Shown: positions 4,085 to 34,054 of the stretch, piece by piece
Numbering within the stretch: the first letter of the stretch is position 1
How the letters are laid out: the number at the start of each line of letters is the position of its first letter
Source: a virus
DNA length: 34,054 nt
IMG/VR virus record: IMGVR_UViG_3300005451_000001
Coordinates: 1-34,054 of that record
Direction: 5' to 3' (one strand)
Made by a program: the position numbers and the translations under genes
The notes under the pieces: generated by a model
What the model saw: only the letters and a program-made list of their open reading frames with translations
What the model was told of the DNA's origin: nothing
Databases searched by the model: none

Positions 4085-4657
4085 TTATTTGAGTGGCACC
4101 GTTCCCGCACATTCAGCCGCGCCATGGCCATGATTATTACATGCGTCGATAACTTGCTTATCACGCGCTGTGATTTTACCGGAAATCAATCCGAAAGCAT
4201 CTGTACGCTCAGGAGCGACATACATATCGACATAAGCGCCAGGCATCACAAGCTCATTCTTGTCAATTACACCTGAGGTACTAGAAAGCTTTTGCTGTGT
4301 AGGACCGTAAGTGTAATGACCTACAGCCTTAGGAATAGTGCGATTTTCGAATAGTGCATGGAAATTTACTTTGACACATTTAGAAGCATCGATATAAGCT
4401 TTTACTGTTTTACACGGATCACTTGTATCCGCAGCACAACCGCTAGGCTGAGCTGACAAAAGTGATAAGGCTAATACTCCCGCAATTGTATGGTGTTTAA
4501 TTTTCATGTTCTGTTTAAATCTCCAAATCTTTTCCTTAGGAATTCGAATATAGATAAAAAGCAATCCGATGATAAAGCAATCGCTTACGAAGTCGTACTG
4601 AATTCCAAGCCAGAAGTGCATCATTCCATAGAAGCGCATAAACTTAATTGACCTCAT
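4085..4657 (-). CDS. two-segment membrane/exported protein, possible lipoprotein
   Basis: 190 residues if it begins at the ATG that overlaps the polymerase stop (ATGA). Residues ~10-40 contain a hydrophobic helix (FIIGLLFIYIRIP) after a FWLGIQYDF stretch; a second hydrophobic segment near residue 58 (TIAGVLALSLLS) looks like a signal peptide followed by PSGC, a marginal lipobox. The remainder has paired cysteines and looks secreted. A second possible start is the ATG at 4507, just before the signal-like segment, so the frame may give two products: a full-length membrane-anchored form and a shorter exported one. No family recognised. Confidence 0.65.
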   Translation of the reverse strand: MRSIKFMRFYGMMHFWLGIQYDFVSDCFIIGLLFIYIRIPKEKIWRFKQNMKIKHHTIAGVLALSLLSAQPSGCAADTSDPCKTVKAYIDASKCVKVNFHALFENRTIPKAVGHYTYGPTQQKLSSTSGVIDKNELVMPGAYVDMYVAPERTDAFGLISGKITARDKQVIDACNNHGHGAAECAGTVPLK

Positions 4658-5493
4658 TTGTAGCCATGCCCCCAACTCCTGCCGTACACCTTCCCCTTGG
4701 CGGTAATCGGCACGCCCATAAATTCAGTTGTCATTACCTTTGCATAACGCTCAGCGATGTACTTAGCCTCACGAATGCGAGCCATGCCCAGTAGCTCATC
4801 ATGTACGGGTAGCAGGACTGTAGGCTCTAGCTCGGGATCATCCATAACGCGGAGCATGGAAGTTTTGAGAATGTCAGCCGCGCTTGACTGCACTTGGTAA
4901 TTAACAACGGTATAGGGCTTCTCAGCGTCAACAATCAACCGCCGACCGAAAGGCGTTGTGACGTAACCATACCGCCCACGACAGAGCCGCTTGATTTCTA
5001 ATCTAACCGCCGCTTGCGCAAGTTTGCCTTCCCGCGTGTCCGAACGATAGTTGAACATTTTCGAGCGTAGAGATTTGTACGCCCGATATTCGAAATCATT
5101 AAGCGCGGTCCGTAAAATCTTATCTTGCTCGCGTCGCTTAAAAGCAACCAATGCTGGAAATTGTGACTCATAGTTTGAAATCAATTCCCTAGCTTGCGCC
5201 ATGCTGATTTCGTACATGCGCGCCATCTTTTCGGCACCGCCACCAAATGCCCACGTGAAATTGATATTCTTGGATAGCTTGTATTGGTCCGGGGTATGTT
5301 GCTCGCCAAATAGTTTGTTAGCGGCATTTAAGTGCAGTGATATCCCTTGCTTGGCTGCCTCAATCATCGACTGCTCGCCAGCCAAACCAGCGATCACGCG
5401 CAATTCAATTTGGTCAAAGTCTGATGAGATGATCGCATAGCCTGGCTCAGCTACGATGCATCGCCTTACAGCAGCCGCGCTAAGGAGTTTCAC
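4654..5493 (-). CDS. family A DNA polymerase, palm/fingers fragment (C-terminal gene)
   Basis: 279 residues holding the catalytic core: motif A ISSDFDQIELRV (about D25), motif B YKLSKNINFTWAFGGG, motif C PVHDELL. It resembles the C-terminal half of DNA polymerase I. The GTG start is chosen because AAGGA lies upstream and the first residues (KLLSAAAVRRCIVAEPG) lead straight into the strand before motif A. The matching N-terminal half (exonuclease and thumb) is a separate gene at 5895-7079, with a small gene between. Active polymerase would need both chains. It shares an ATGA overlap with the next gene. Confidence 0.88.
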   Translation of the reverse strand: MKLLSAAAVRRCIVAEPGYAIISSDFDQIELRVIAGLAGEQSMIEAAKQGISLHLNAANKLFGEQHTPDQYKLSKNINFTWAFGGGAEKMARMYEISMAQARELISNYESQFPALVAFKRREQDKILRTALNDFEYRAYKSLRSKMFNYRSDTREGKLAQAAVRLEIKRLCRGRYGYVTTPFGRRLIVDAEKPYTVVNYQVQSSAADILKTSMLRVMDDPELEPTVLLPVHDELLGMARIREAKYIAERYAKVMTTEFMGVPITAKGKVYGRSWGHGYK

Positions 5494-5557
5494 GAGGGTA
5501 AATTTCCTTACTGGCTCTACAGCCTGGCCCTTGGCAGAAGCCCCGTTTAATTTTGAT

Positions 5558-5584
5558 ATCCATATTGGACAGTGGCATGTGGAC
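5558..5584. promoter_or_regulatory. tandem pair of 13-bp palindromic sites before polymerase C-terminal gene
   Basis: ATCCATATTGGAC, one base, then GTGGCATGTGGAC, 14 bp from start to start. It lies about 65 bases upstream of the GTG at 5493, in the untranslated gap between the inserted small gene and the polymerase core gene. The second copy has a poor left half. Confidence 0.5.
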
Positions 5585-5643
5585 GGTCGGGTAAACCCAA
5601 TAATATTTATGGAAACCAAACAAACAAACAACGTAGCCAAACT

Positions 5644-5898
5644 TTATTCGTCGTCATCCAAAATCATAATTCCCATCGGTCCCTCAGTTAGGCCAGCGTC
5701 TTTAAGTAAGCGCTCCTTATAATCTGTCAAGCGTAGCTGAGCCACATTAGCGCGTAATTCTGGCAGACCCATAAGAGCTAATTTCTCTCTATTAACCTCT
5801 ATGATTTCCTCAATCAATTCCTCAATCAATTCCTTTCTATCCATTTCCTTGATTGGTTTGATACCGAATATCTTTACGTTTTCATTCTCGTTTGTCAC
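5644..5898 (-). CDS. small acidic helical protein inserted between polymerase halves
   Basis: 84 residues, GTG start overlapping the stop of the polymerase N-terminal gene (GTGA). Very rich in E, K, L and I, with a run ELIEELIEEIIEV that should form an amphipathic or coiled-coil helix, and an acidic end ILDDDE. There is no nuclease motif, so it does not look like a homing endonuclease. Position and coupling suggest it may help the two polymerase chains assemble, or may be a relic of an insertion; both are inference. Function unknown. Confidence 0.65.
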   Translation of the reverse strand: MTNENENVKIFGIKPIKEMDRKELIEELIEEIIEVNREKLALMGLPELRANVAQLRLTDYKERLLKDAGLTEGPMGIMILDDDE

Positions 5899-7079
5899 TC
5901 GCTTTCCTCATCCTCACGATTCTTAGTTGGTAATTGCTGGAATGGCGGATTACTCACACTCATTCGAGCCGTACGCGCTCCTAGGGGATTGATACTCGGG
6001 TGCACCCTGCCGTTAACATCTAGGTCAGCTAGCATGTGATCGGCGTAGCTAGACTTACGTTTCTCTAATTGCTTGGCCAGCAATACACAGCGACTGAAGT
6101 CACGTACTTCCTCACTGTCCACTGTGGACCGAATTTTTCTTAGTATGCCCGCATCCGTCTTTAACTGCCCCGTTTTTGTGCGCTCTGTTAACTCAACTCC
6201 AAGCGCCATAAGGGTTTGTGCTAGCTTCTGTCCACTTTGGATATTGGCACAACCGTATTCGGCTGCCCGCGCTCTGTAGTGCTCTGCCCGATTAAGAAAT
6301 GCGCTAGAAAGTCGCGTTGTGTAATCAACATCGATTGGTAAACCTCGCCGCTGTAGCCTGTCACAAGCATTCGCGACTCGCTTATCGAATTGGTACAACT
6401 CATAAAAGTGTCGGACAATCGGTTGAAATTCTTTCCAGACCCTATAGGTAATGAGGGGATCGACTCCTGCATAAGCGATGTAAGCAGGGTGTCTAGAGTC
6501 AACCAATCGCCATCCTTCAGAGAGCTTTGCCTTACGCATTTTTTGCTGGCCCTTGCGAGGGCCACTCTTGTAAACTTCGCCTGCAATAGGTATTTCGATA
6601 GTTTTAAATATCTTCTTAAGCTCAATCTCCCACTTACTAGCGCTTTTGTCGATGTAATGATTGGCCAATTCTTTAAGTCCGTGACCAATTCCGCCTTCTT
6701 TTCTATTCCGCGAATCGAAATGGTGCGAGGGAATATGTGTCTCTGCACAAATGATTCCTGTTTCATAGCCGAGATAAGCATCTATGCATCGGATATCGTG
6801 GGGTCCGTTGTGTCCAATCCATTGAATGCGTTGCTTACATAGCCAACCGACAAACCGTCTAGCGCTAGCGGGGACAACGTAAGCGACATTGGCATTTCCA
6901 ATTTGGGTTGTCCGCAACATCCATTGTGGATGATATGGATTGAGTCCCGTTGATTCTGTGTCAATCCCAAGCGCTCGACTAGATCGCACGAAATCAGCAA
7001 TTTCCGATAAGTCACGTCGGGATTCGGGGTAGTTGATTTGTATTCGTTCATCGGCCAGCCAATCGTTAATCCTTAACAC
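5895..7079 (-). CDS. family A DNA polymerase, 3'-5' exonuclease/thumb fragment (N-terminal gene)
   Basis: 394 residues. Exonuclease motifs are intact: IDTESTGL (D40, E42), HNGPHD (about residues 90-95) and YAGVDPLITY. The thumb follows, then the conserved NPLGARTARMS and FQQLPT segments that normally lead into motif A. Here the chain ends nine residues after LPTK with NREDEESE and a stop. Together with the 279-residue C-terminal gene the total, 673, is close to a whole phage polymerase I-type enzyme. GTG start; ribosome site weak. One perfect and one near-perfect 13-bp palindromic site lie inside the gene. Confidence 0.88.
   Translation of the reverse strand: MLRINDWLADERIQINYPESRRDLSEIADFVRSSRALGIDTESTGLNPYHPQWMLRTTQIGNANVAYVVPASARRFVGWLCKQRIQWIGHNGPHDIRCIDAYLGYETGIICAETHIPSHHFDSRNRKEGGIGHGLKELANHYIDKSASKWEIELKKIFKTIEIPIAGEVYKSGPRKGQQKMRKAKLSEGWRLVDSRHPAYIAYAGVDPLITYRVWKEFQPIVRHFYELYQFDKRVANACDRLQRRGLPIDVDYTTRLSSAFLNRAEHYRARAAEYGCANIQSGQKLAQTLMALGVELTERTKTGQLKTDAGILRKIRSTVDSEEVRDFSRCVLLAKQLEKRKSSYADHMLADLDVNGRVHPSINPLGARTARMSVSNPPFQQLPTKNREDEESE
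6117..6129. promoter_or_regulatory. perfect 13-bp palindromic site (intragenic)
   Basis: GTCCACTGTGGAC, a perfect match to GTCCA-N3-TGGAC, inside the polymerase N-terminal gene, where it encodes S-T-V-D. Confidence 0.5.
6919..6931. promoter_or_regulatory. 13-bp palindromic site (intragenic)
   Basis: ATCCATTGTGGAT, perfectly self-complementary in the two arms, 8 of 10 matches to the family consensus. Inside the polymerase N-terminal gene. Confidence 0.35.
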
Positions 7080-18571: not shown

Positions 18572-18644
18572 TGCCCCCTATGGGATTCGAACCCATACTT
18601 GACCGATTTTAAGTCGGTTACCTCTGCCATTGGGTTAAGGGGAC
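18572..18644 (-). tRNA. tRNA with UAA anticodon (reads UUA Leu), short variable loop
   Basis: 73 bases fold as a full cloverleaf: acceptor GTCCCCT/AGGGGGC (one G-U pair), D arm with GG in the loop, anticodon stem ACCGA/TCGGT with loop CTTAAAA (anticodon UAA), variable loop of five bases CAAGT, T arm ATGGG/CCCAT with TTCGAAT, discriminator A. CCA is not encoded. UUA is rare in high-GC actinobacteria but common in this phage, so the tRNA would help phage translation. Leucine tRNAs normally have a long variable arm; this one does not, so its charging identity is open. Confidence 0.88.
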
Positions 18645-32783: not shown

Positions 32784-34054
32784 TTACGCCAGCTTGACGA
32801 ACGGAGAAAGGGTAGCCCCACCATTCTGCGGGGTAATGGGACTCATGAGCCACGGACGACCGTCAACACGCTCGATAACACGGAACGCGGTAACATCCTG
32901 GTTAAAGCGGAAATCTTCAGACTGACGCGCGCTCATAGCCTGGCGATCGCCTACCAAATAGAAACCGAAATCAACAAAGTTGATATCGCCAGTGACACCC
33001 GTAGCGGCTGCCTTCTCAGAAACAATTACCGGACAACCGAGAATGGTAAGCGGCTGAGAATCATTACCACTAGAGAAGCCTGCCCCACCGAGCAACATCG
33101 GCGTAGTGGTACCGCCGACAGCGAACGGCATCGTAAGGAGGTTCGGAATTGAATCAGGCGAAACAATCCACACAGCGCGGTCTAGCGACTGAGGCAGCAT
33201 GCGCGAATACATGTTAGCGATATCAGGCCAGTCGATATTCTGTCCGGAACCCGTTCGCGTGATGTTAATCGCAGCAGGAGCATTCAAGAAACCAAGAGGC
33301 TCGCCTACGCCCTTACCAATGAAGAATGCAACATCTTCGAACCATGCAAGAGCCTCAGGGAAAATCTCCCCTATAAATGCTTCCATCGACGGCTGAGAAT
33401 CACGAATCAATTCATTCGGAACCTCGGTGTAAAGCACAAGCTTCTGTGCACGTAATTCCACCCGACCGAATCGCGGGCGACTCTCGGTAAGGGTTGCACC
33501 TTCCTCAGTCCAGTAACCCACAACGCCACCAAACACGCTGGAAACGTTGGAAGTGCTGTCAACAGTCGGGAAGGGAACCGTAAGCGAATCCATCGGAATA
33601 ACACGCGCACGTGACCGAACAATTGCGCGCTCTAATGCAACACGCAAAAGCTCAGCGCGGAGGATTTCCGGAATTAAGAAACCGCCGTCACTGGGCTTAA
33701 TGCTGGACATTGCATTCTGTAATTCGAGCATCTTCCGAGAATTCTCAGGCGTCTTATAGCCATGCTCGGAAATGGTATGCAAAAGCTCAGCGGCACTATT
33801 GAATGAGCCATCATGCTTAGCGCCTACCGCGCTCTTGTTATAAATAGTTGACGGACGGATATGGCGCGCGTTAGGCGAATCGAGATTGAGCCGATTCCGC
33901 GTGGCGGTATCCATGCCCTTTTCCCGTAACCAATCAACCATGAACTTCTCAGTCTGCTCATTAACTTGATTGAGAAGTTCAGGGTCCTTAGCAATCCGAG
34001 CGTTAACCGAATCTTCTACGAAATCCGCAAAATTCTCGGGGTCAGCGAGTAGAT
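32784..34054 (-). CDS. HK97-fold major capsid protein, N-terminus cut by window edge
   Basis: Open to the right edge: 423 codons in the window. The N-terminal ~120 residues in view are helical and charged (DPENFADFVEDSVNARIAKD), the usual delta/scaffold domain fused to HK97-type capsid proteins. The fold begins near SDGGFLIPEIL and has VVGYWTEEGATLTESRPRFG, ELIRDSQPSMEAFIGEIF, FFIGKGVGEPLGFLNAP and FYLVGDRQAMSARQSEDFRF, all typical. An in-frame ATG at 33941 is probably internal because the frame stays open and coding-like beyond it. Confidence 0.93.
   Translation of the reverse strand, partial: LLADPENFADFVEDSVNARIAKDPELLNQVNEQTEKFMVDWLREKGMDTATRNRLNLDSPNARHIRPSTIYNKSAVGAKHDGSFNSAAELLHTISEHGYKTPENSRKMLELQNAMSSIKPSDGGFLIPEILRAELLRVALERAIVRSRARVIPMDSLTVPFPTVDSTSNVSSVFGGVVGYWTEEGATLTESRPRFGRVELRAQKLVLYTEVPNELIRDSQPSMEAFIGEIFPEALAWFEDVAFFIGKGVGEPLGFLNAPAAINITRTGSGQNIDWPDIANMYSRMLPQSLDRAVWIVSPDSIPNLLTMPFAVGGTTTPMLLGGAGFSSGNDSQPLTILGCPVIVSEKAAATGVTGDINFVDFGFYLVGDRQAMSARQSEDFRFNQDVTAFRVIERVDGRPWLMSPITPQNGGATLSPFVKLA

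Follow-up and report, generated by a model that had tools for sequence, protein, structure and literature searches.

The window, by which we mean the whole stretch of viral DNA that was analyzed (34,054 nucleotides), encodes PolA, a family A DNA polymerase, on its minus strand in two genes, polN and polC, that are separated by an 84-codon ORF (ORF84). The polN gene (5895..7079) runs from a GTG at 7079 to a TGA at 5895; its 394 amino acids end in QQLPTKNREDEESE and make up the 3'-5' exonuclease, the thumb and the first palm segment, with the motif RTARMSVSNPPFQQLPTKN. ORF84 (5644..5898, GTG at 5898 to TAA at 5644) encodes an acidic, helical protein of 84 amino acids, and its start overlaps the polN stop as GTGA. 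From the ORF84 stop it is 150 nt to the GTG at 5493 that opens polC (4654..5493, 279 amino acids), which holds the palm with motifs A and C and the fingers with motif B. A possible 32-amino acid ORF (MPLSNMDIKIKRGFCQGPGCRASKEIYPRETP; 5480..5578, minus strand) overlaps the polC start; its coding score is weak, and we regard it as doubtful.

The initial annotation had read the locus in just this way—a polymerase divided into an exonuclease/thumb gene and a palm/fingers gene with another gene between them, a GTGA overlap and a second half with its own start about 150 bases further on—and the ORFs and the complementary Pfam matches bear it out. The exonuclease domain (PF01612) lies on polN, and the polymerase profile DNA_pol_A (PF00476) is divided between the two chains, with positions 3-139 on polN and 139-380 on polC. 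A single polypeptide, which here is replaced by two ORFs, is usual for family A but is not required for homology. The locus looks as a split phage polymerase should look: adjacent ORFs carrying complementary parts of the enzyme, in an arrangement common to a lineage.

Where does the polymerase come apart? In a profile alignment with Klenow, polN ends at chain residue 360 and polC resumes at 364, or at about residues 683 and 687 if the Klenow fragment starts at residue 324, as we take it to do. The alignment thus places the break in a three-residue loop, Klenow residues about 684-686, with the motif A aspartate (D25 of polC, Klenow D705) 18 residues further on. In the unsplit homologues, with which the initial annotation had proposed a comparison, the sequence reads QQLPSGD-W-x-VRR with no break in it. 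Little is left over at the junctions: polN stops 7 residues past the last conserved position, and polC begins 6 residues ahead of homology. We considered a split intein and rejected it on length, since these 7 and 6 residues leave no room for intein domains.

One might suppose that a sequence of metagenomic origin has simply been misassembled or that it records a frameshift or a decaying pseudogene, and we give this idea almost no credence. A second IMG/VR contig, IMGVR_UViG_3300006046_000068, shares 6274 identical bases with the window, a stretch that takes in the polN stop and 93 bases at the start of ORF84. In addition, 12 of 12 other close-relative contigs in IMG/VR that have both halves are split at the same place, which refutes an error in one assembly and upholds the earlier claim that this is no simple frameshift. 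(The second contig ends at a 12-base repeat in ORF84, encoding ELIEELIEE at about 5806-5832 of the window, where its assembly probably stopped.) The split set consists of the window, L143, L144, L145, L146, L147, L148, L149, L150, L151, L154, L095 and the more distant L132; L152 and L153 carry only polN, and L152 ends before the break. Identity of the split relatives is 52-66%, with one outlier near 40%, and they were recovered by an alignment-based scan, single-sequence searches having been insufficient: those found no polC relatives, and for polN and ORF84, they matched only the identical contig.

Outside this set, the polymerase is whole. In 199 more distant loci, viral and bacterial, both parts lie in one open frame, and a later, partly overlapping set held 72 unsplit polymerases and no new split contig. 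Two viral scans with deeper alignments likewise added no split contig, and none of the unsplit sequences that they recovered was an intermediate carrying the fingers insert or the tyrosine described below. When 57 concatenated sequences were placed on a tree, the 13 split ones made up one side of a branch with an SH-aLRT of 99; the split needs one change on that tree, and none of 500 shuffles did as well. The split is, in other words, a trait of this phage lineage and goes back to a single event in its ancestor. Nor are the halves decaying: for the pairs L144/L145 and L143/L146, dN is 0.14-0.17 against a dS of 1.55-2.3 in both halves, so that polN and polC are under strong purifying selection, with a dN/dS of about 0.1, which also speaks against a pseudogene.

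What lies between the halves is far less constant. Among the relatives, the distance from the polN stop to the polC start ranges from 266 to 1599 nt and is filled by one to several small genes, some of them VapB-like (PF23719; L144:6412-6801 and L145:6184-6525) and one of the SLOG family (PF10686; L150:6572-6946). With contents as varied as these, the gap seems to be a place where genes come and go. Family profiles run on some of the gap ORFs revealed no homing endonuclease among them. Readthrough from ORF84 into polC, which in the window share a frame with one stop between them, was rejected, because the relatives have other genes and other frames there. A perfect 13-nt inverted repeat is also present between ORF84 and polC (5443-5455 and 5732-5744), where a rough count gives about 0.04 pairs expected by chance.

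Could the gap be an intron, whether or not it holds an ORF, that splices itself out and leaves a mature mRNA encoding one chain? Group I introns do interrupt several phage DNA polymerase genes, and the authors who described the phage MEP401 raised the same question for its split PolA (PMC10580990). In 801 bases of the window, no Rfam group I or group II intron matched even at E=10; at gathering thresholds, none matched in the window or in four relatives; and the folding energy equals that of shuffled sequences (z-score 0.03). ORF84 fills 255 of the roughly 430 nt, leaving little space for a ribozyme core, and polC begins at a conserved start of its own, with an N-terminal extension, MKLLS. That the gap DNA differs in length and genes among relatives argues, moreover, against a common intron or intein. 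We therefore consider splicing very improbable, and the suggestion of a lost intron or insertion finds no support as a present mechanism; an ancient insertion may still be the origin of the split.

The initial annotation had also pictured two polymerase chains held by the small protein, and the gene for that protein is typical of the phage in its coding statistics. The coding score of ORF84 is 0.125; the median for coding sequence is 0.118, and the 99th percentile for non-coding sequence is -0.02. Homologues with the consensus GFKxIxEMTREELIxE occur in L143, L144, L146, L147, L148, L149, L150 and L095 and, more weakly, in L151. Leave-one-out HMMs of the family recover its members with E values (one target) of 1.5e-19 for the window, 2.8e-17 for L150, 6.4e-21 for L095 and 2.8e-7 for L151. 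Beyond the lineage, ORF84 matched nothing in Pfam and, by tblastn, nothing among phage records, and its PHROG match was only weak (E=0.076). Its presence between the halves in most relatives and its overlap with the polN stop would suit an obligatory third subunit that joins the halves. Yet L145, L154 and L132 show no homologue between the halves or elsewhere in their records (that of L145 being an 18-kb fragment), and ORF84 evolves fast, at 41-55% identity where polN and polC show 69-79%. Its absence from three split records argues that ORF84 is not an obligatory clamp, a role we think unlikely; the two chains of the earlier proposal are well supported, and the "held by" is not.

The exonuclease residues and polymerase motifs A and C are conserved in the two chains; one expected residue is replaced, and we come to it below. 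In polN, whose relatives start with MLRINDTLAG at the same place as in the window, the DEDDy residues of the exonuclease (DTE, NxxxD and YxxxD) are present, and D40, E42, N91, D95, Y203 and D207 are invariant (alignment A6), as are the polymerase-motif residues R372, S374, Q381, L383 and P384. The polC start matches the conserved MKLLS..A.(I/V)RR of its relatives; its catalytic acidic residues of motifs A and C are in place, D25 being invariant and D232/E233 kept in at least 90% of sequences, and K75 is invariant (alignment A7), with F79 kept in the window. AF2 predicts polC with a pLDDT of 92.7 and best PDB matches to Taq, Bst and Klenow and predicts polN with a pLDDT of 90.3. The main poorly predicted part of polN folded alone is its last 30 or so residues, at 46-64, which carry the primer-contacting motif RTARMSVSNPPFQQLPTK, as one would expect of a tail that folds only on polC.

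The confident prediction of polC on its own might be read to mean that each chain acts independently, with polN a free exonuclease and polC a minimal polymerase, and free-standing exonuclease subunits are indeed annotated in other phages (by the name of phrog_192). We think this improbable. In polN, the thumb is retained, and so is the invariant RTARMSVS..QQLP polymerase motif, for whose residues a free exonuclease would have no need. That the polN tail is invariant in split and unsplit polymerases alike is an argument that polN still contributes to the polymerase site. The cut passes through the palm fold itself, such that neither half has a whole polymerase site, and the polN and polC genes remain neighbors in 13 of 13 split phages.

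We prefer to think, with a probability of about 0.86, that polN and polC are translated separately and form the two chains of one replicase of the DNA polymerase I type, with no covalent bond between them. The break common to 13 phages, the purifying selection on both chains and the conserved separate start of polC all lead to this reading, and the changes near the active site that accompany the split, described below, point the same way; from the sequences, we infer that the chains associate, are active and are made by coupled translation. In such an enzyme, proofreading would fall to polN, which would also bring the thumb and the first palm strand with its primer-contacting motif; the catalytic aspartates would come from polC, together with the fingers and what remains of the palm. 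Both would be translated from one transcript on which the genes are closely packed and their translation is probably coupled. In the relatives, polC begins within or at the very end of the upstream ORF (for L146, assuming an MPPKLHLL start), an overlap that suggests such coupling; in the window, it is the doubtful 32-amino acid ORF that has its end just within polC, whose start is preceded by an AAGGA. After the split, which arose once, the gap would have gained and lost small genes. No second DNA polymerase came to notice in the window.

The split does not come alone. The distance from the motif B lysine to the GRR motif is 103-108 residues in the 13 split polymerases versus 55-75 in 197 unsplit ones, a difference that reflects a fingers insert of 40-45 residues found only in split polymerases (13/13). 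In the window, alignment and predicted helices put this insert at 4978..5106 (minus strand), upstream of GYVTTPFGRR, and AF2 draws it as two helices, polC 133-148 and 154-171. At the O-helix arginine position, four residues before K758 (Klenow R754), all 13 split polymerases have tyrosine—Tyr71 of polC in the window, codon 5281..5283, minus strand—where 198 of 200 unsplit ones have arginine, as do 71 of 72 in a second, partly overlapping set; tyrosine was found in none of the unsplit sequences surveyed. A basic residue neighbors the tyrosine in 12 of the 13. Klenow R754 contacts the dNTP phosphate, and this arginine is held to be central to dNTP binding. The split polymerases thus depart from the motif B pattern RxxxKxxxF, but by homology and fold, they are still family A. 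The earlier statement that the halves keep all expected motifs holds for the exonuclease and for motifs A and C and is wrong here, and with the O-helix arginine replaced, activity may differ from that of a standard PolA.

Are the palm split, the fingers hairpin and the change from arginine to tyrosine functionally linked? They might together constitute a rebuilt PolA site, with nucleotide binding or an open-closed cycle unlike those of all characterized family A enzymes and with the hairpin possibly holding polN. We offer this as speculation that is rather more apt to be wrong than right. With one origin of the split lineage, the insert and the tyrosine are single shared events, and their association is no proof of a functional link.

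Split polymerases have been met before. In phage 25, one of the T4-like Aeromonas phages (with 44RR) in which the replicative polymerase is made as two chains, gp43A and gp43B, the chains co-purify and are active (PMC2988022), a precedent for two-chain activity. The likeness, as read here from genes, is of a replicative phage polymerase in two chains; gp43 has the family B fold, however, and its gap is a seg homing endonuclease gene or untranslated sequence, whereas no such endonuclease was recognized in the gap genes searched here. Closer in kind is the split PolA of MEP401, MEP402 (Zobellviridae; OP830906) and most of their group I, phages of the Methylophilales (OM43) (PMC10580990), which has the exonuclease and the N part of PF00476 first, then the C part, with one small gene of unassigned role between. 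Their break, however, is displaced by some 14 residues toward the C terminus and falls immediately ahead of motif A (gp13 ends ...LFLSRYGE, and gp15 starts MILNADAKALEW), and gp15 keeps the O-helix arginine (RLIAK), has no apparent fingers insert and matches the polC profile weakly (27 bits). Given the different break and the retained arginine, we take the two splits, which are in different lineages, to be probably independent. The closest annotated relatives in the phage collection are single-chain actinophage PolA proteins, for example those of Arthrobacter phages MaGuCo and Liebe and Microbacterium phage Caron, which share the domain order at about 31-36% identity but have an uninterrupted frame (QQLPSGDWxVRRA), the O-helix arginine and no fingers insert. 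A literature search, which covered few subscription papers, found none describing this split-PolA lineage.

As to the host, a search of genome contigs found no close relative and hence no host by that route. The major capsid protein of the window (32784-33941) is closest to that of Streptomyces phage Dagobah, at 48% over its full length, which hints at an actinobacterial host; the Dagobah annotation lists no DNA polymerase I. The window also has a tRNA gene at 18572-18644 (minus strand, Rfam 57.7 bits), and L151 has one at 1204-1276.

The variable gap contents answer, for the separate lineage of the window, the intron question that was left open for MEP401. More broadly, replicases that nature has made in two chains reveal at which points a conserved enzyme can be cut and by what means a phage makes up for the missing covalent bond. 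In this lineage, divergent as it is, a cut through the palm appears to be fixed, and it goes together with the loss of an active-site arginine; the role of that O-helix arginine becomes directly testable in a natural enzyme.
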